Part shown: positions 12,411 through 22,048 of the stretch, in pieces
Layout of the letters: each line of letters starts with the position of its first letter
Position numbering within the stretch: the stretch's first letter is position 1
From: a virus
Length of the DNA stretch: 25,813 nt
Virus record (IMG/VR): IMGVR_UViG_3300028393_000304
Span: 1 to 25,813 of that record
Reading direction: 5' to 3' (one strand)
Program-made: the position numbers and the translations under genes
Notes under the pieces: generated by a model
The model's input: the letters and a program-made list of their open reading frames with translations, nothing else
Told to the model about the DNA's origin: nothing
Database searches by the model: none

Positions 12411-13049
12411 ATGAACTTAACTACATTTTCCCAGGCAAACTTGCCAGCCGTTTCAACCTTGTCTAGCGCTTTGCGTTCGATCCAAGCCGAAGTCGGCCCA
12501 GCCGGTGTTGTCATCCTCAAGATGGACAAGACAGGTCACTGGGTCTTTGGTGCAGATCAAACTGAAGTGGAAGACGACGCTGTATGGGCTGTCAATCCTT
12601 TCTCTTTTGTCCACGGCTTTATTGCTTGGGGTGATGGCGAAGTGTTGGGCGAGAAGATGACCAGCGTTAGCAACCCACTGCCTGAGTTGGATGAGGCACC
12701 CCCTCAAGCCAAAAAAGGCTGGGAAACTCAAGTTGGTATGTCGCTGAAATGTATATCAGGCGAAGACAAGGGTATGGAAGCGCGTTTTACAACCACGTCA
12801 GTGGGCGGCAAGCGCTCTGTTCAAACCTTGGCCGTGGCTTTGGCCGAGCAGGTCGAAAAAGATCAAACCAAACCAGTGCCAGTCGTGCGTCTGAAGAAAG
12901 ACCATTACGCCCATAAATCTTACGGCAAAATCTACACGCCAGTGTTTGAGATTGTTGAATGGATGTCTATGGATGGCGAAGCGCCTGCTGCAATTGAAGC
13001 CGCTGAAGAAGCGCCTGCTGCACCTGCACGTCGCCGCCGTAACGCTTAA
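12411..13049 (+). CDS. presumed ssDNA-binding protein (by position)
   Basis: 212 residues with AAGG upstream of the start. The middle (about residues 100-185) is beta-rich with aromatic and basic residues (VVRLKKDHYAHKSYGKIYTP). The C-terminal tail is an Ala/Glu/Pro-rich acidic stretch ending in ARRRRNA. It occupies the slot between DUF2800 and DNA polymerase where DUF2815 ssDNA-binding proteins sit in related modules. I cannot show that it belongs to that family; an SSB-like role is inferred from order and composition. An acidic tail is usual for SSBs, but the final Arg run is not. The tail contains a 30-bp (10-codon) internal repeat. Confidence 0.6.
   Translation: MNLTTFSQANLPAVSTLSSALRSIQAEVGPAGVVILKMDKTGHWVFGADQTEVEDDAVWAVNPFSFVHGFIAWGDGEVLGEKMTSVSNPLPELDEAPPQAKKGWETQVGMSLKCISGEDKGMEARFTTTSVGGKRSVQTLAVALAEQVEKDQTKPVPVVRLKKDHYAHKSYGKIYTPVFEIVEWMSMDGEAPAAIEAAEEAPAAPARRRRNA
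12978..13022 (+). repeat. 15-bp direct repeat with 30-bp period in the SSB-like tail
   Basis: GAAGCGCCTGCTGCA occurs at 12978-12992 and 13008-13022. The 30-bp period keeps the frame and encodes EAPAA twice in the Ala/Glu-rich tail. A small tandem duplication in a flexible tail is the simplest explanation. Confidence 0.8.
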
Positions 13050-13153: not shown

Positions 13154-15055
13154 ATGTTATACGTTGATTTTGAAACTCGCAGTACATGCGACTTACGCGC
13201 CAAGGGCGTGTACAACTACGCGCAAGACGCAAGTACCGATGTACTGTGCATGTCTTACGCTTTTGATGACGATGAAGTCACGACGTGGGTACCTACCCAG
13301 CCATTCCCTGAAAGCGTACGCAACTACACTGGCCAGATTAGGGCGCATAACGCCGCGTTCGAGCGCTTGATCTTTTGGTACGTGTTGCAGATTAACTTCA
13401 AATTAGAGCAGTTTTACTGCACCGCAACACAAGCCCGCGCCAACTGTGCGCCTGGCAGTTTGGAAGACGTTGGCCGCTTTGCTGGCGCCTCTATGAAAAA
13501 AGATCACAGGGGCGCGCAATTAATTCGCTTGATGTGCGTGCCGCCGTTCAAAGACTCGCCAGAACTTATGGCTGAGATGATCCAGTATTGCGAGCAAGAC
13601 GTGCGTGCCATGCGTGCAATCAGCAAAGCCATGCGTGACTTATCTGACGAGGAACTTACAGATTATCACGTCAATGAACGCATCAATGATCGAGGCGTGT
13701 TGGTCGATGTGCCGCTGTGCCAAGCAGCCGTGAAGTTTGCGTCTGACGAGCTAGTTGAGATCGAGCAGATCGTGCAAGAAGTCACCGGCGGCGCAATCGC
13801 CAGTGTCAGGTCGCCGCGTATGCGTGAGTGGGTGCTTGAGCGCGTTGGCGAGCAAGCCAAGAAGTTGATGGAAAAAGATGGCAAGTATTCCATTGACAAA
13901 ACAGTCCGTGCCAACCTTTTAATGATGGAGAATCCAGATGAAGTCCCAGCCGATGTACAAGAAGTTATCCAATGCGCCGACGACCTCTGGGCGTCCTCTG
14001 TGGCAAAGTTCAGCCGACTCAGCGGTCTGGCGGATGAGGAGGATCAACGAGTACGAGGAGCGTTCGTATTTGCTGGCGGCTCAGCAACAGGCCGCGCATC
14101 ATCCTACGGCGCCCAAGTCCACAACTTCACACGCAAGTGCGCTGACGAACCCGAAGCCGCACGAAATGCTATGGTCAGAGGGCACTCAATCGTGCCTCGG
14201 TATGGAAAGCGCGTTACCGATGTACTTAAAGGAATGCTTAGGCCAGCCCTCATCCCTGCAACAGGCAAGCACTTTGTCGTCGCAGACTGGGCGGCTATCG
14301 AAGCCCGCGTTAACCCGTGGCTGTCTGGCCGTGGGGACGACAAACTTGAACTTTTCAGAACGGGCGAGGATGTTTACAAAGTTAACGCGGCCGCAACATT
14401 TAATGTTCGCGTGGCAGATGTCACCAAAGATCAAAGACAGATTGGTAAAGTTCAAGAGCTGGCCTGCGGGTTCGCTGGAGGCGTTGGCGCTTTCGCTGCT
14501 ATGGGCAGGGCTTATGGCATATCTTTGCCAGAACCCGTCGCCAAGCGAATGGTGGACGGTTGGCGTCGTGCTAATACCTGGGCTGTTCCTTATTGGACGT
14601 CGCTTGAAGAATCCTACACCAGAGCAATGAGAAACAAAGGCCGCGAGTTCAAAGCTGGCCGTATAACATATTTATTCGATGGGCAACACCTATGGTATGC
14701 CCTACCTTCTGGCCGCATTTTGTGTTACCCATATGCCAAATTGGAATCGGACGGCATCAGTTATGCCAAAGCGGCATGGAAGCCTGCACAAGATGCAAAA
14801 GAATGGCCGCGTGCAAGGTTGTGGAAAGGGTTGGCGTGTGAAAATGTCACTCAGGCTGTCGCAAACGATTTATTGCGGCACTCCTTGCGCCAACTTGATG
14901 ACGTCGTGTTACACGTGCATGACGAGATTGTGGTCGAAACTGCTGACCCAAGCGCAGCAGAGAATTTAAAGCGTGTGATGTGTACAGCACCAGCGTGGGC
15001 GCAAGGCCTGCCACTCGATGCTGAAGTTGAAACTATGAAAAGGTATGGCAAATGA
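13154..15055 (+). CDS. polA: family A DNA polymerase with 3'-5' exonuclease domain
   Basis: 633 residues if started at ATG 13154 (MLYVDFETRS), where family members usually begin; a TTG at 13124 would add ten residues. The exonuclease domain has DFET (D5, E7), HNAAFER (about 65) and YCEQD (D149). The polymerase domain has motif A ADWAAIEARV (D378), an O-helix RQIGKVQELACGFAGG, and motif C HVHDEIV (H589, D590, E591). There is no 5'-3' exonuclease domain, as usual for phage PolA. It is the phage replicative polymerase. No good ribosome binding site is seen before either start, but a structured leader is. It overlaps the next gene by ATGA. Confidence 0.95.
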   Translation: MLYVDFETRSTCDLRAKGVYNYAQDASTDVLCMSYAFDDDEVTTWVPTQPFPESVRNYTGQIRAHNAAFERLIFWYVLQINFKLEQFYCTATQARANCAPGSLEDVGRFAGASMKKDHRGAQLIRLMCVPPFKDSPELMAEMIQYCEQDVRAMRAISKAMRDLSDEELTDYHVNERINDRGVLVDVPLCQAAVKFASDELVEIEQIVQEVTGGAIASVRSPRMREWVLERVGEQAKKLMEKDGKYSIDKTVRANLLMMENPDEVPADVQEVIQCADDLWASSVAKFSRLSGLADEEDQRVRGAFVFAGGSATGRASSYGAQVHNFTRKCADEPEAARNAMVRGHSIVPRYGKRVTDVLKGMLRPALIPATGKHFVVADWAAIEARVNPWLSGRGDDKLELFRTGEDVYKVNAAATFNVRVADVTKDQRQIGKVQELACGFAGGVGAFAAMGRAYGISLPEPVAKRMVDGWRRANTWAVPYWTSLEESYTRAMRNKGREFKAGRITYLFDGQHLWYALPSGRILCYPYAKLESDGISYAKAAWKPAQDAKEWPRARLWKGLACENVTQAVANDLLRHSLRQLDDVVLHVHDEIVVETADPSAAENLKRVMCTAPAWAQGLPLDAEVETMKRYGK

Positions 15056-17346
15056 ACTTTCTTGAATTCCTAACGTCCCTTGCACCGGAGGGCGAGACAG
15101 CGCTTATCGTGCGTCAAAAACCCCAACTAAAAGACGGCGAAATGCAGTTCCATGCGGATGGCGCAATTAAATGCACATGGCCTGCTATGTTACCCACCGC
15201 ACGCATCAAAGACGATTGGGCGATTTACGGCAACACCGCCAGCTTTATCATTGACCGCTTCAAAGATGGCCATGTCTCAGCGTCAGCGGCCAACTGCGAG
15301 TACGTGCTTGTCATGGTGCTTGATGACGTGGGCACCAAGGCCAAGATCCCGCCACTTGAGCCGACTTGGAAGATTGAAACGTCTGAGGGATCATTTCAGT
15401 GGGGCTATGTTTTTTCTGAGCAGCCTACAAAGGCCGACTTCAGCGCGGCCATTAAAGCGATTGCCGATGCAGGTTACACCGATGCAGGCGCTATCAATGC
15501 CGTGCGTAACTTTCGCCTGCCTAACTCGATTAACTTGAAGCCTGACCGCAATAATTTTGCCGCCATTTTGCGTGAGTTTGAGCCATCACGTGAGTTTACT
15601 TTGCATGAAATTTGCCAAGCGCTTAACGTGACGCCCGCGCCTGCCGACTCTGTTGGCGTGCGCCCGATCCGTCTATCAGATGACGGCGCAGATGATGTGA
15701 TGGCGTGGCTGTCTAGCCAAGGCCTGCTGTTGTCCAAGCCTAATCAAGAGGGCTGGGCTGGCGTGATCTGCCCTAACTCTGGTGAGCATAGCGATGGCAA
15801 CCCCGAAGGCCGTTACATGCCCGCCAACCGCGCTTATTGTTGCCTGCACAGCCATTGCCTTGAATTTGACTCTGGCGTGTTCTTGAAATGGGTGGCCGAG
15901 AATGGTGGCCCGAAACACGCCCCAGGCTTACGTGATGAGCTACTGACCTTGGCCATGGATCAAGCCTTGTCTAAGTTGACGCCATCTGACATGTTTACAG
16001 ATGACGCGTCTGCCGTGATCGCTGAAGTTGAGCGCAAAGAATTAGGCCGCGTTGAAAAGTCGCAGTGGTTTGAACGCTTTGCATACATTCAAGACGATGA
16101 ATCTTATTTTGATATGCAAGATCGTCGTGAGGTGTCGCGCTCGACCTTTAACGCTCTGTTCCGTCACATTGCGTGCAAATCTATACATGGTAAAAACCCT
16201 AAGATCGAAGCATCTATTTGCTTTGATGAGAATCGTCAGAAACATGGCGCGAAGGCACTTGTTGGCATAACGTATGCCGCAGGTGAGTCGGTTATTGTGG
16301 CGCGCGATGGTGACCTGTATGGCAATCGCTGGCGTGACGCCCGCCCTGTCGTGGGCACGGGTGATGTGACTCCTTGGCTTGAGCATTGCAAGACGCTTGT
16401 GCCTGACGAGGCCGAGTTAGAACACATCTTCAATGTGATGGCGTTTAAGGTGCAACATCCTGAGATCAAGATCAATCACGCCGTGTTGCATGGCGGTGAC
16501 CAAGGCTCAGGCAAAGACACCATGTGGGCACCCTTCATTTGGGCAGTCTGTGGTGAACACCTTAAAAATCGTGGCCTCTTGGACAATGACACTATGTCGT
16601 CTCAATTTGGTTACGCTCTTGAGTCTGAAATTTTGATCTTGAATGAGTTGAAAGAACCTGACGCCAAGGAGCGCAGGGCGTTGGCAAACAAACTCAAACC
16701 AATTATTGCCGCCCCGCCTGAGATGCTGACAGTTAACCGCAAGGGTCTGCATCCATATCAAATGGCAAACCGCGTGTTTGTGTTGGCGTTTTCGAATGAC
16801 CCTGTGCCAATTAGTTTGGACTCGCAGGATCGTCGTTGGTTTTGCGTCTGGTCACATGCCCCGCGCATGTCGCCCCAAGCTGCTGAGAAAATGTGGAAAT
16901 GGTACAAGTCGGGCGGCTTCGCGGCTATCGGTGGCTGGCTTGCGTCCCGTGATGTGACGGCCTTCAATGCAGGTGCCGCGCCTATGATGACCGAGTTCAA
17001 AATGAATCTTGTCGAGCATGGCATGAGCATGGCAGAAAGTTACCTTGTCGAACTTATGCGCGGGCGTCTGGGCGAGTTTTCAAAAGGCGTGGTGGCGTCG
17101 CCTTTCCATGCGCTGTGCGATCGCCTTGCAGGCGCGGCTCCGTCTGGCGTGAAGGTGCCACAGCCTGCCTTGTTGCATGCGCTTAAAGAAGCAGGGTGGG
17201 TTGACATGGGGCGTCTGAAGTCCCGTGAGTTTGACACTAAAAAACACATTTTCTGCGCGCCTGAGATGTGCGATGTGTCTAAATCTGAATTGCGTAGGCT
17301 TGTCGAGGATGTGCCCGCGCCCTTATCTGTGAGGTTAGTAAAATGA
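15052..17346 (+). CDS. PrimPol-helicase fusion (RepB-like primase plus D5/DUF5906 helicase)
   Basis: 764 residues. The N-terminal 190 look like an archaeo-eukaryotic-type primase: VMVLDDVGTKAK (D91, D92), a GSFQWGY strand and RNFRLPNSINLKP. A zinc-knuckle-like region follows at about 236-272 (ICPNSGEHSDG, then CCLHSHC). The C-terminal half is a superfamily 3/D5-type helicase: Walker A GDQGSGKD (482-489), Walker B-like ILILNEL (about 527-533), and the sensor stretch FSNDPVPISLDSQDRRW. It would prime and unwind DNA for PolA, whose gene it overlaps by ATGA. This matches the VapE/D5 position in related phage replication modules. The 3' end overlaps the next gene by ATGA. Confidence 0.9.
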   Translation: MNFLEFLTSLAPEGETALIVRQKPQLKDGEMQFHADGAIKCTWPAMLPTARIKDDWAIYGNTASFIIDRFKDGHVSASAANCEYVLVMVLDDVGTKAKIPPLEPTWKIETSEGSFQWGYVFSEQPTKADFSAAIKAIADAGYTDAGAINAVRNFRLPNSINLKPDRNNFAAILREFEPSREFTLHEICQALNVTPAPADSVGVRPIRLSDDGADDVMAWLSSQGLLLSKPNQEGWAGVICPNSGEHSDGNPEGRYMPANRAYCCLHSHCLEFDSGVFLKWVAENGGPKHAPGLRDELLTLAMDQALSKLTPSDMFTDDASAVIAEVERKELGRVEKSQWFERFAYIQDDESYFDMQDRREVSRSTFNALFRHIACKSIHGKNPKIEASICFDENRQKHGAKALVGITYAAGESVIVARDGDLYGNRWRDARPVVGTGDVTPWLEHCKTLVPDEAELEHIFNVMAFKVQHPEIKINHAVLHGGDQGSGKDTMWAPFIWAVCGEHLKNRGLLDNDTMSSQFGYALESEILILNELKEPDAKERRALANKLKPIIAAPPEMLTVNRKGLHPYQMANRVFVLAFSNDPVPISLDSQDRRWFCVWSHAPRMSPQAAEKMWKWYKSGGFAAIGGWLASRDVTAFNAGAAPMMTEFKMNLVEHGMSMAESYLVELMRGRLGEFSKGVVASPFHALCDRLAGAAPSGVKVPQPALLHALKEAGWVDMGRLKSREFDTKKHIFCAPEMCDVSKSELRRLVEDVPAPLSVRLVK

Positions 17347-19451: not shown

Positions 19452-19503
19452 CTTTGCATTGTTTGCGCCGGTGAATGTATTGTAAAACAATTCTTTGCAT
19501 TGT
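19452..19503. repeat. 11-bp direct repeats flanking the cluster 2 promoter core
   Basis: CTTTGCATTGT occurs exactly at 19452-19462 and 19493-19503, 41 bp apart, close to four helical turns. One copy overlaps the -35 box and spacer; the other lies just after the predicted transcription start. Such placing suits a repressor binding two sites on one DNA face. Repeat seen directly; operator role inferred. Confidence 0.6.
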
Positions 19504-19506
19504 CAA
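19479..19506 (-). promoter_or_regulatory. strong sigma70 promoter of leftward cluster 2
   Basis: On the minus strand, -35 TTGACA (19506-19501, exact consensus), 16-bp spacer, and -10 TACAAT (19484-19479, 5 of 6). Transcription would start near 19472. This is the closest match to the sigma70 consensus I found in the window, as expected for an early phage promoter. Confidence 0.78.
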
Positions 19507-19517
19507 CAATTATTTTA

Positions 19518-19533
19518 TAGGGATAAACCCTAA
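19518..19533. repeat. left TAGGG-ATAAA-CCCTA element bracketing the iteron array
   Basis: A 5-bp inverted repeat, TAGGG and CCCTA, around ATAAA, including the 10-mer TAAACCCTAA (19524-19533). The same 10-mer recurs at 19921-19930, just past the other end of the iteron array. Confidence 0.45.
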
Positions 19534-19534
19534 G

Positions 19535-19908
19535 TGTGGACAATAGATGGATAACGGGTGGACACTGTATAAATGAAAGTTTGACCCACGTGGAATGTCA
19601 ATAAATACGCGGTTTGCAGAGAAGTGTGGACAATGTGGACAATCATTTTCTAGCAACTAAAATTCAAGATTTTTATATAAGGGTTAATACCTATACAGTG
19701 TGTCACGCCAAGTTGACGCCTCGTCCGCCACCGATTTTAAATCGACGTCCACATTGTCCACATTGTCCACAAATGTCCACGCCAACATGTCCACGCAAAA
19801 AACAAAAAAGGAAATGTGGACAAGTTGGACAATGTAAAAACTTATTGTCCACATTGTCCACAAAGTTATGGCCATGCGACTTGAAACAGACTGTCCACAT
19901 TGTCCACA
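19535..19908. other. iteron array, candidate replication origin
   Basis: Fifteen copies of a 9-bp unit. As TGTGGACAA or one/two-base variants: 19535, 19557, 19625, 19634, 19815, 19824. As TTGTCCACA or close variants: 19745, 19754, 19763, 19773, 19787, 19845, 19854, 19891, 19900. Many abut exactly, giving pairs and one triplet. TTGTCCACA differs from the E. coli DnaA box TTATCCACA at one base. An AT-rich stretch without copies (about 19643-19695) could be the unwinding region. No gene fits here: frames that run through it only translate the repeats. Origin role is inferred; a regulatory or packaging role is possible. Confidence 0.7.
19815..19862. repeat. 48-bp imperfect inverted repeat inside the iteron array
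   Basis: Two abutting TGTGGACAA-type units (19815-19832) face two TTGTCCACA units (19845-19862) across 12 bases. They can pair over 18 bp with two mismatches, in DNA as a cruciform or in RNA as a hairpin. Confidence 0.65.
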
Positions 19909-20100
19909 TGACCCACAGGGTAAACCCTAATAAGCATTCAGGCCGAGGGGAGGGGGTAGGGCCGACGGCAAAGGGCCAACAAAAACGAATGGGTCACGAA
20001 CAATTTTTTTTCTTACAGCAATTTGCTAACTGCCTTTAGTTTTTAATTTTTTATTTTTTGTTGTAAACTCACAGCCACGTGCAAACTGCATGGAGAACAC
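19909..20100. other. non-coding stretch between iterons and terS
   Basis: 192 bases without a supported gene. It holds the right bracket element GGGTAAACCCTAA (19918-19930), a G-rich patch (19947-19975) and several T-rich runs (19 T in two blocks near 20003-20060). GGAG precedes the terS start. I find no convincing sigma70 promoter; TAAACT at 20064-20069 has no good -35 partner. Late transcription of the packaging genes may begin here with a phage-modified or non-standard promoter. Confidence 0.5.
19947..19975 (+). other. G-rich patch with four G runs, possible G-quadruplex
   Basis: G runs of 4, 5, 3 and 3 at 19947-19950, 19952-19956, 19959-19961 and 19973-19975, with loops of 1, 2 and 11 bases. 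It could form an intramolecular G-quadruplex. Only the base pattern is seen. Confidence 0.35.
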
Positions 20101-20547
20101 ATGTTCCATTCGATTCCATTTACGCCGCGCAAGGTTGAAGCAACAGAGTCGCGCTTGAAAGCGGTATATGACGCCGCAAGGCTAGGCCTCAAAGGCGACG
20201 CGCTTGCGTTGGCCGCAGGCATGTTGCCTACCGAGTACCGGCAACTTACGCAACTTGACCCCGTGGTCGAGATCGCCGCGCAAAAAGGCAAAGCTGATGG
20301 CGAGATTGAGCTTTCTAAAGTGATGCACCAAGCCGCGCTAAACGGCGACTCCAAAGCGGCGTTAGAAATCCTCAAACATCAACACGGCTGGGTAGCCAAG
20401 CAGGCTATCTCTGTCGAAGTCGATCAGCGCATTTCAATCACTGGCGCGCTGGCCGAAGCGCAAAAGCGCATACTGGATGTAATCGACGTAACAGACGCCC
20501 AAGTAATAGAGACACCAATAGATGCAATCGACCATATACAGCGCTGA
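20101..20547 (+). CDS. terS: terminase small subunit
   Basis: 148 residues with GGAG five bases before the ATG. The N-terminal half (about residues 15-60, LKAVYDAARLGLKGDALALA then GMLPTEYRQL) looks like the DNA-binding helix-turn-helix of small terminases. A central helical part follows (GKADGEIELSKVMHQAALNG, then DSKAALEILKHQHGW), which is common in this family. It would recognise the packaging site and feed DNA to the large subunit. It overlaps the terL start by 26 bases in another frame. Identity rests on sequence look plus position directly ahead of terL. Confidence 0.82.
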   Translation: MFHSIPFTPRKVEATESRLKAVYDAARLGLKGDALALAAGMLPTEYRQLTQLDPVVEIAAQKGKADGEIELSKVMHQAALNGDSKAALEILKHQHGWVAKQAISVEVDQRISITGALAEAQKRILDVIDVTDAQVIETPIDAIDHIQR

Positions 20548-22048
20548 AGACGAACAAGAGTTGATGGCCAGATTGTGGGCGCCAGCGATCAAGGACAACC
20601 CATTGGCGTTTGTGATGTTTGCGTTTCCTTGGGGTCAGCCCGGCACGCCGCTAGAGCATTTCAAAGGCCCACGCAAATGGCAGCGCGAGGTCTTGCAAAG
20701 CGTCGGCGACCACATTAAGCAGAACCAAGGCAAAGTAGACTTTGACACCCTGCGACATGCCGTCAGTTCAGGCCGTGGTATTGGCAAGTCGGCGTTGGTT
20801 AGCTGGATTACGATCTGGATGTTGACCACGCGGATTGGCTCAACGACCATTATCTCGGCTAACAGTGAATCACAGTTGCGAAGTGTCACATGGGCCGAGA
20901 TAACCAAGTGGATAGCAATGTCGCTCAACAGCCACTGGTTTGAAGTCTCGGCCACCAGGCTGATGCCTGCCAAGTGGTTGACTGAGCTGGTCGAGCGCGA
21001 CTTGAAAAAAGGCACACGCTACTGGGGCGTCGAGGGGCGGCTATGGTCAGCGGAAAATCCTGATGCGTACGCTGGCGTACACAACTACGATGGTGTGTTG
21101 GTAGTGTTTGACGAAGCGTCAGGTATTGACGACAGCATCTGGGCGGTGACATCTGGTTTCTTTACTGAGAACACGCCTAACCGATTCTGGATGGCGTTTA
21201 GTAACCCACGGCGTAACACTGGGTACTTTTACGAAGCGTTTAATTCAAAGCGCGAGTTCTGGACTACAAAAGTAGTAGACGCCCGAACGGTCGAGGGAAC
21301 GGACAAACAGGTCTACCAGCAGATCATCGACGAGTACGGCGCTGACTCATCACAGGCGCACGTTGAGGTGTACGGTCAGTTCCCATCCGAGGGCGACGAT
21401 CAGTTTATATCAGCTAATTTAGTTGACGACGCAATGAAGCGGCCTAAGTATAAGGACGAGACGGCACCAATCATCATTGGCGTAGACCCTGCGCGGTTTG
21501 GCGCGGATGCAACAGTTATTGCCGTGCGGCAAGGGCGCGACATTATTTCAATTCAGCGCCATCGGGGCGACGACACTATGACTGTCGTTGGCCATGTGAT
21601 CGAAGCGATTGAAGAATACAAACCCGCGCTGGTTGTAATCGACGAAGGCGGATTGGGTGCAGGCATTGTGGATCGCTTGAAAGAGCAGCGCTACAAAGTC
21701 AAGGGCATCAACTTTGGCAACAAGTCGGTCAACCCTATTATGTACGGCAACAAAAGAGCCGAAATGTGGGGCAAGATGAAAGATTGGCTCAAGACGGCAT
21801 CAATACCGCTTGACAGATTTCTTAAAACTGATCTAATTTCACCTATGATGAAACCCGACTCTAAGGGTACAATATTTTTAGAGTCGAAAAAAGACATGAA
21901 AGCACGGGGCTTGGCATCACCTGACGCGGCTGACGCGATCTGCGTGACATTTGCATTTCCCGTGGCCCACCGTGAGGCGCGTGAATCCACGCAGCGCCGC
22001 ACGTACAGTGACCGAAGCGTGGTGACAACCTCATGGATGGGTTCGTAA
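20522..22048 (+). CDS. terL: terminase large subunit (ATPase and nuclease)
   Basis: 508 residues. The ATPase domain has Walker A SGRGIGKS (G84-S90) and Walker B GVLVVFDEASG (D197, E198). The RNase H-like nuclease domain has IIGVDPARFGAD (D322), VVIDEGG (D374, E375) and a C-terminal PDAADAI (D468, D471) as metal ligands. It is the motor that pumps DNA through the portal and cuts the concatemer. The set resembles terminases of P22-portal podophages. It starts 26 bases inside terS, and its TAA shares a base with the next ATG (TAATG). Confidence 0.95.
   Translation: MQSTIYSAEDEQELMARLWAPAIKDNPLAFVMFAFPWGQPGTPLEHFKGPRKWQREVLQSVGDHIKQNQGKVDFDTLRHAVSSGRGIGKSALVSWITIWMLTTRIGSTTIISANSESQLRSVTWAEITKWIAMSLNSHWFEVSATRLMPAKWLTELVERDLKKGTRYWGVEGRLWSAENPDAYAGVHNYDGVLVVFDEASGIDDSIWAVTSGFFTENTPNRFWMAFSNPRRNTGYFYEAFNSKREFWTTKVVDARTVEGTDKQVYQQIIDEYGADSSQAHVEVYGQFPSEGDDQFISANLVDDAMKRPKYKDETAPIIIGVDPARFGADATVIAVRQGRDIISIQRHRGDDTMTVVGHVIEAIEEYKPALVVIDEGGLGAGIVDRLKEQRYKVKGINFGNKSVNPIMYGNKRAEMWGKMKDWLKTASIPLDRFLKTDLISPMMKPDSKGTIFLESKKDMKARGLASPDAADAICVTFAFPVAHREARESTQRRTYSDRSVVTTSWMGS

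Follow-up and report, generated by a model that had tools for sequence, protein, structure and literature searches.

An iteron array that switches its unit together with a primase-helicase is the probable replication origin of a mostly freshwater phage family

An array of short repeats in both orientations lies upstream of the small terminase gene (terS) in the phage DNA analyzed here, and it raises the question of which protein reads these repeats and to what end. The DNA, hereafter the window, is an entire linear virus record of 25,813 bp; it is a fragment of a genome, because near-complete relatives measure 36–39 kb. The sequence-only reading had described 15 copies of a 9-mer, six in one orientation and nine in the other. 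A motif count confirmed this array: the core TGTCCAC, with at most one mismatch, was found 15 times within positions 19536–19907, with six cores on the minus strand (19536, 19558, 19626, 19635, 19816 and 19825) and nine on the plus strand (19746, 19755, 19764, 19774, 19788, 19846, 19855, 19892 and 19901). The core is exact in 13 of the 15 units, as against an expectation of 0.14 (mean of 2000 dinucleotide shuffles of the stretch; maximum, 2), and the full-length unit TTGTCCACA is exact in nine. Beyond the array, exact TGTCCAC occurs in the window only at 12608 and 25614. Units abut with a 9-bp period at 19626/19635, 19746/19755/19764, 19816/19825, 19846/19855 and 19892/19901. This phasing, which had also been pointed out from the letters alone, is real, being found in 263 of 445 same-strand neighbors; however, the 9-bp period is not essential, because other unit classes use about 8 or 10 bp.

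The sequence AGGG(A)TAAACCCTAA stands on both sides of the array (19519–19533 and 19917–19931). The AGGGTAAACCC flanks were considered as borders of a cassette and rejected, since similar sequences were found in only about 15 of 176 relatives. An Rfam search returned no match.

Features of the window around the array (PRIM denotes the primase-helicase gene and its product; coordinates are positions in the window)
Feature	Position	Strand	Basis or remark
PRIM, 764 aa, primase, DUF5906 helicase and predicted C-terminal winged helix; proposed initiator	15052..17346	+	
DUF5906 helicase core of PRIM, residues 479–595	16486..16836	+	domain match, NrS-1 6k9c/6k9e
PRIM C-terminal domain, residues 660–752	17029..17307	+	AlphaFold2 fragment model
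Predicted PRIM wing, residues 723–728 (KSREFD), with putative specificity triad K723, R725, D728	17218..17235	+	
Strong leftward sigma-70-like promoter, serving the small-gene block	19479..19506	-	TTGACA-16-TACAAT, 11/12
Iteron array, proposed replication origin	19535..19908	both (9 plus, 6 minus)	15 units, TTGTCCACA type
Inner left tandem pair (leftward), bordering the gap	19625..19642	-	scaffold conserved across unit classes
Repeat-free gap, candidate unwinding element	19643..19745	.	left half 77% AT
Inner right run (three rightward units), bordering the gap	19746..19771	+	scaffold comparison
Two more rightward units	19773..19794	+	motif count
Lone leftward pair, second unit imperfect (TTGGACA)	19815..19831	-	motif count, scaffold comparison
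Right tandem pair	19845..19862	+	scaffold comparison
Outer right tandem pair	19891..19908	+	scaffold comparison
terS, 148 aa, downstream neighbor of the array	20101..20547	+	without covariation with the unit
terL	20522..22048	+	gene annotation

An exact scan for TTGTCCACATTGTCCACA returned at least 120 viral contig stretches. Nearly all of the listed contigs with genes of this phage family have the array between PRIM and terS, with small antisense genes standing between PRIM and the array, and relatives fetched via TerL alone again had the array between PRIM and terS. The family is large and mostly freshwater, and the location of the array is constant throughout it. Its gene set consists of a P22-like portal, TerL, PolA, a DUF2800 exonuclease and a DUF5906 primase. 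Genome bins containing near relatives belong mostly to Burkholderiales or other Proteobacteria, which hints at proteobacterial, largely Burkholderiales, hosts. The nearest named phage is MW202483 (L125; Manatee Spring), which encodes at 31423–31719 a stand-alone DnaA domain-IV helix-turn-helix protein (PF08299, E 1e-17).

Whereas the location is constant, the unit is not. Many relatives with 94–99% identity in TerL and up to 94% in TerS have no TGTCCAC upstream of terS, and instead carry an array with another unit at the same location; L170, for example, is identical to the window at 99% in TerL and 94% in TerS, yet has a different unit. Absence of the array from close relatives had been named beforehand as an observation that would speak against an origin. 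What is absent from relatives with 99% identical TerL is the unit sequence, whereas an array itself is present. Variants across the family include ATTGTCCAC, ATTGCCTAC, ATTGCCAAC, ATGACCCAA and ATGAC(C/T)CAC. Among the TerL-fetched relatives, we found the units AATGACCCAAA, TTGCCAACA, TTGCCTACA and TAGCCCACA, and in others AATGA(C/T)CCACA-type units with a 10-bp period; the array of MW202483 is built from TGTTTACA. Across the unit classes, which were assigned by script from the consensus, a scaffold is kept that consists of a leftward pair, a gap of about 100 bp, a rightward pair, a leftward unit and two further rightward pairs. Counted from terS, these elements lie in the window, of class A, at -475/-466 (leftward), -346/-337 (rightward), -285 (leftward), -255/-246 and -209/-200 (both rightward). 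In L202, of class B, the left part lies at -437/-428 (leftward) and -320/-311 (rightward) and the right part at -267/-258 (leftward pair), -238/-229 and -181/-172 (both rightward), and L217, of class D, has a scaffold like these two.

If the unit is rewritten within a fixed scaffold, the protein that reads it should be the one whose history the unit follows. Among 59 phages, the unit class changes seven times on the PRIM tree (minimum, six), but 20 times on the TerL tree and 19 times on the TerS tree, close to the mean of 21.5 for shuffled labels. In matched sets, the numbers of changes were six for PRIM versus 13 for PolA, six versus 13 for SSB, and four versus 10 for the exonuclease. Close linkage alone is an unlikely cause of this difference, because the PolA gene overlaps PRIM by 4 bp, whereas the array is 2–4 kb away. 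In other words, switches of the unit follow PRIM and not TerL, TerS, PolA, SSB or the exonuclease.

PRIM matches DNA primase PHROGs, and domain matches place primase and helicase in one protein. DUF5906 was found in the PRIM of 29 of 29 relatives and RepB_primase at the N-terminus in 16 of 29, and the helicase part matches the NrS-1 PrimPol (profile E 1e-10). An AlphaFold2 model of the C-terminal fragment (pLDDT mostly 84–94) has the order helix-strand-helix-helix-strand-wing-strand-helix. In this model, residues 723–728 lie between strands 717–722 and 731–735, after helices 685–695 and 704–713 (pLDDT about 93), so that residues 723, 725 and 728 fall in the predicted wing. The name ‘winged helix’ rests on this topology, because a Foldseek comparison of the C-terminal model with the PDB gave no significant match (best E 0.067, a transcriptional regulator); likewise, no PDB sequence matched this domain. 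The model of full-length PRIM, for which confidence was low (pTM 0.35), did not enter the fold search.

The part of PRIM that varies with the unit is this wing. Closely related PRIMs of classes A and B differ by 16 fixed substitutions, seven of which lie in residues 720–764, and, with 74 further loci added, the wing segment GRLKSREFDTKKH was seen to vary along with the unit. We counted combinations of residues and bases in 110 phages, with the unit framed as A1 T2 N3 N4 N5 C6 N7 A8 N9. R725 occurs with C9 in 70 of 74 cases, and G, A, S, T or H at 725 with a base other than C at position 9 in 35 of 35, MW202483 apart; this distant phage does not obey the residue-base rules. K723 occurs with C7 in all 68 cases, and T, Q or P at 728 with GAC at bases 3–5 in 39 of 43. 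In phylogenetically independent pairs, drawn from a tree of the PRIM residues before the wing, the counts for and against were 10.5 versus 0 for residue 725 (p 0.001), 10 versus 0 for residue 728 (p 0.002) and 5.3 versus 0 for residue 723 (p 0.06). In an unbiased scan of all 764 residues, the top rank for base 9 went to 725 and that for bases 3–5 to 728; for base 7, 728 was again first and 723 second. The K723 rule is the weaker one, because class B lost K723 but kept C7, and the residue is missing from 23 phages whose units retain C7. These comparisons suggest a wing code in which residue 725 would pair with base 9, residue 723 with base 7 and residue 728 with bases 3–5. Four R725 phages (L291, L293, L308 and L312) have C in less than half of their units at position 9; their arrays are possibly relaxed or degrading, or reflect errors in motif calling.

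Predictions were recorded before three further scans for other unit pairs. Among the matches listed, the prediction for residue 725 came true in all 51 loci that were parsed, three of which were already known and many of which are mutually related; these counts leave out one locus, L389, for which parsing failed. When C7 was replaced by A and C9 kept, all four PRIMs listed (two of them new) had R725 and none had K723. When C7 was replaced by T and C9 kept, the same was true of all 43 parsed PRIMs listed, of which one was already known, with wings such as YSREYT, ASRTHG, SSREYG, ATRELT, GTREYQ, SARALP, NTREHA and AARGLE. When C9 was lost, none of the four PRIMs listed had R725, the residue being K or A. 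The rule for residue 728 is looser, in that several GTREYQ, SARALP and ATRELT wings go with TGC and not with GAC.

These results bear on the other proteins that might read the array. The unit TTGTCCACA had been described as one base from the DnaA box, which is correct with respect to TTATCCACA but incomplete, since it is also the exact high-affinity DnaA box of the actinobacteria Mycobacterium tuberculosis and Streptomyces coelicolor (PMC4285127, Table 1). Host DnaA might thus bind the array, and the phage borrow host initiation. However, the units of sister phages have switched, in step with PRIM, to other sequences (ATGACCCAA, ATTGCCTAC and more), none of them a DnaA box, the hosts indicated by the MAG bins are proteobacterial, and the dnaA neighborhoods of two MAGs that carry relatives contain TTATCCACA and no TTGTCCACA. 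Moreover, a DnaA_C search of 42 records found the domain only in MW202483, whose unit differs. Given the PRIM tree and the unit switching, therefore, this explanation falls to a negligible probability, the link to host DnaA implied by the sequence-only reading is not supported, and the evidence indicates that the identity of TTGTCCACA to an actinobacterial box is coincidental here. The constant position beside terS could instead mark a packaging site (pac or cos) recognized by the adjacent TerS, and three of five circular contigs indeed open at or near the array (G014, G020 and G022), while, of 58 contig ends, four are located shortly upstream of terS, 554–577 bp before terL (L183, L203, L211 and L213). 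The sequences at these clustered ends differ, though, and most contigs that hold both PRIM and TerS read straight through. The openings and ends are probably assembly breaks at a variable region, with a terminus as the alternative. The near-random distribution of unit classes over the TerS and TerL trees, as opposed to that of PRIM, and the different unit of L170 at nearly identical terminases therefore leave packaging very unlikely.

Two further possibilities keep the array in touch with PRIM. The reader might be a different phage protein that is linked to PRIM, for instance a product of the small leftward genes that separate PRIM from the array, with PRIM hitchhiking; but among the loci from the listed TTGTCCACATTGTCCACA matches, g18270 was present in 26 and g17859 in 18, as against PRIM in 68, and the covariation at the level of residues points to the PRIM wing, so we give this idea hardly any credence. 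PRIM might also read the array as an operator of the leftward early promoter and the rightward terS promoter, with replication starting elsewhere. A strong leftward promoter abuts the array, weaker promoter-like sites lie within it, the divergent intergenic position fits, and all covariation data are equally compatible with this. We nevertheless consider it unlikely, in that an operator does not need as many as 15 units, arranged on both sides of an AT-rich gap in a conserved scaffold, the predicted binder is a primase-helicase, and neither the window nor the near-complete relatives showed another TGTCCAC cluster. Operator and origin roles may coexist, and PRIM may additionally act in autoregulation at the flanking promoters.

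We therefore favor, with a probability of roughly 85%, the reading that the array is the phage's own theta-type origin and that PRIM is its initiator, reading the units through the C-terminal wing. Judged by the sequence comparisons, the array is very probably a replication start site, to which the C-terminal part of the primase-helicase would bind. Origins of the iteron type combine short repeats clustered in one intergenic region, here 15 units, with an AT-rich region beside them and a cognate initiator of matching specificity. The gap is 62% AT against 51% for the whole window, and across the family it has a mean length of 103 bp and 63% AT against 53% for the region; the matching specificity is statistical, given by the covariation and the advance predictions. 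The proposal of an iteron-type phage origin, made at the outset, is thus well supported, by the conserved location and scaffold as well as by the unit-PRIM covariation. GC skew in ten near-complete relatives was weak, with small amplitudes, scattered minima and no consistent signal at the array, and it speaks neither for nor against an origin there.

In the mechanism that we propose, the wing of the C-terminal winged-helix domain would read each 9-bp unit: R725 would touch the C9:G pair and K723 the C7:G pair, while residue 728 would read bases 3–5. The divergent tandem units would take up many copies of PRIM, which would form helicase rings to the left and right of the AT-rich gap, open its strands and make the primers for DNA synthesis by the phage PolA. 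By the logic of P4 alpha and SaPI Rep, PRIM would most likely be a self-loading initiator.

Iteron origins with primase-helicase initiators are already known. In lambdoid phages, the initiator O and its iterons, which lie inside the O gene, form type-specific pairs, and O, being neither helicase nor primase, recruits the host DnaB. The proposed pairs of PRIM and array are likewise type-specific, but PRIM is a primase-helicase and the array is intergenic, outside the PRIM gene. Phage P4 has two separate repeat arrays, ori and crr, whereas only one array was seen here, in an incomplete window, with only isolated cores elsewhere in it and in the near-complete relatives. According to the works cited in PMC4234260 (Ziegelin and Lanka 1995; Yeo et al. 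2002), the P4 alpha protein joins a primase, a helicase and a winged-helix domain that binds origin repeats, as PRIM is predicted to do. However, the P4 primase is of the Toprim type (PMC4234260) and that of PRIM is RepB_primase/AEP-like, and the DNA-binding domain of PRIM had no detectable sequence match and no significant fold match in the PDB; the P4 alpha domain did not appear among the fold matches listed. The replication proteins of pRN1 (ORF904) and phage BIP-1 also combine an AEP primase, an SF3 helicase and a winged helix (PMC4234260), but the origin there is a large stem-loop, unlike the iterons here. SaPI Rep and SCCmec Cch2 are self-loading initiator helicases whose C-terminal domain recognizes iterons downstream of the gene (PMC7581432), which resembles the proposed role of PRIM; those are staphylococcal islands with iterons directly downstream of rep, whereas here the array lies 2–4 kb off beyond antisense genes, the primase is fused to the helicase, and no wing-residue code with many specificity switches was found in the literature covered. 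NrS-1 PrimPol (6k9c, 6k9e and 6lrb; PMC7102993), also a phage primase-helicase, is the only solved sequence homolog of PRIM, but the match is limited to the helicase part, and no counterpart of the PRIM C-terminal domain was found there. What is new here is the assignment of an origin and initiator to this phage family, the wholesale switching of units in a fixed scaffold and the three-residue wing code. A literature search that reached only a minority of subscription journals found no paper on the array, and the matches listed for TTGTCCACA were only DnaA boxes and unrelated sequence.

It has long been asked how an initiator and an origin of fifteen sites can shift their specificity jointly while replication is maintained, and the known cases offer only a few pairs; here, hundreds of related phages provide many independent switches, which are localized to three residues. 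Since the unit covaries with three PRIM residues, the recognition rule can be read from nature, and it has already predicted unseen proteins from the unit sequence alone. It is likely that the origin has been rewritten independently some ten or more times, each time with joint changes in the units and in two or three wing residues but with the scaffold retained, giving a natural recognition code and, if this is true, possibly origin-incompatibility groups among co-infecting lake phages. A domain of 158 residues and short oligonucleotides would suffice for a direct test of the code. An abundant group of uncultured freshwater phages thereby gains an origin and initiator assignment, which also explains why a phage whose hosts are probably proteobacterial carries a perfect DnaA box of the actinobacterial type.

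Other repeats were observed near the array in some relatives. A palindrome unrelated to the array unit, GTTAGTN3-4CACTAAC, is absent from the window and occurs in 4–8 copies between the array and terS, about 100–450 bp upstream of terS, in one sub-group (L021, L024, L062, L073, L080, L088, L106, L122, L223, L247 and L331). In L317, a CCGACCGA-type tandem repeat with about 29 matches lies upstream of terS, beside the array.
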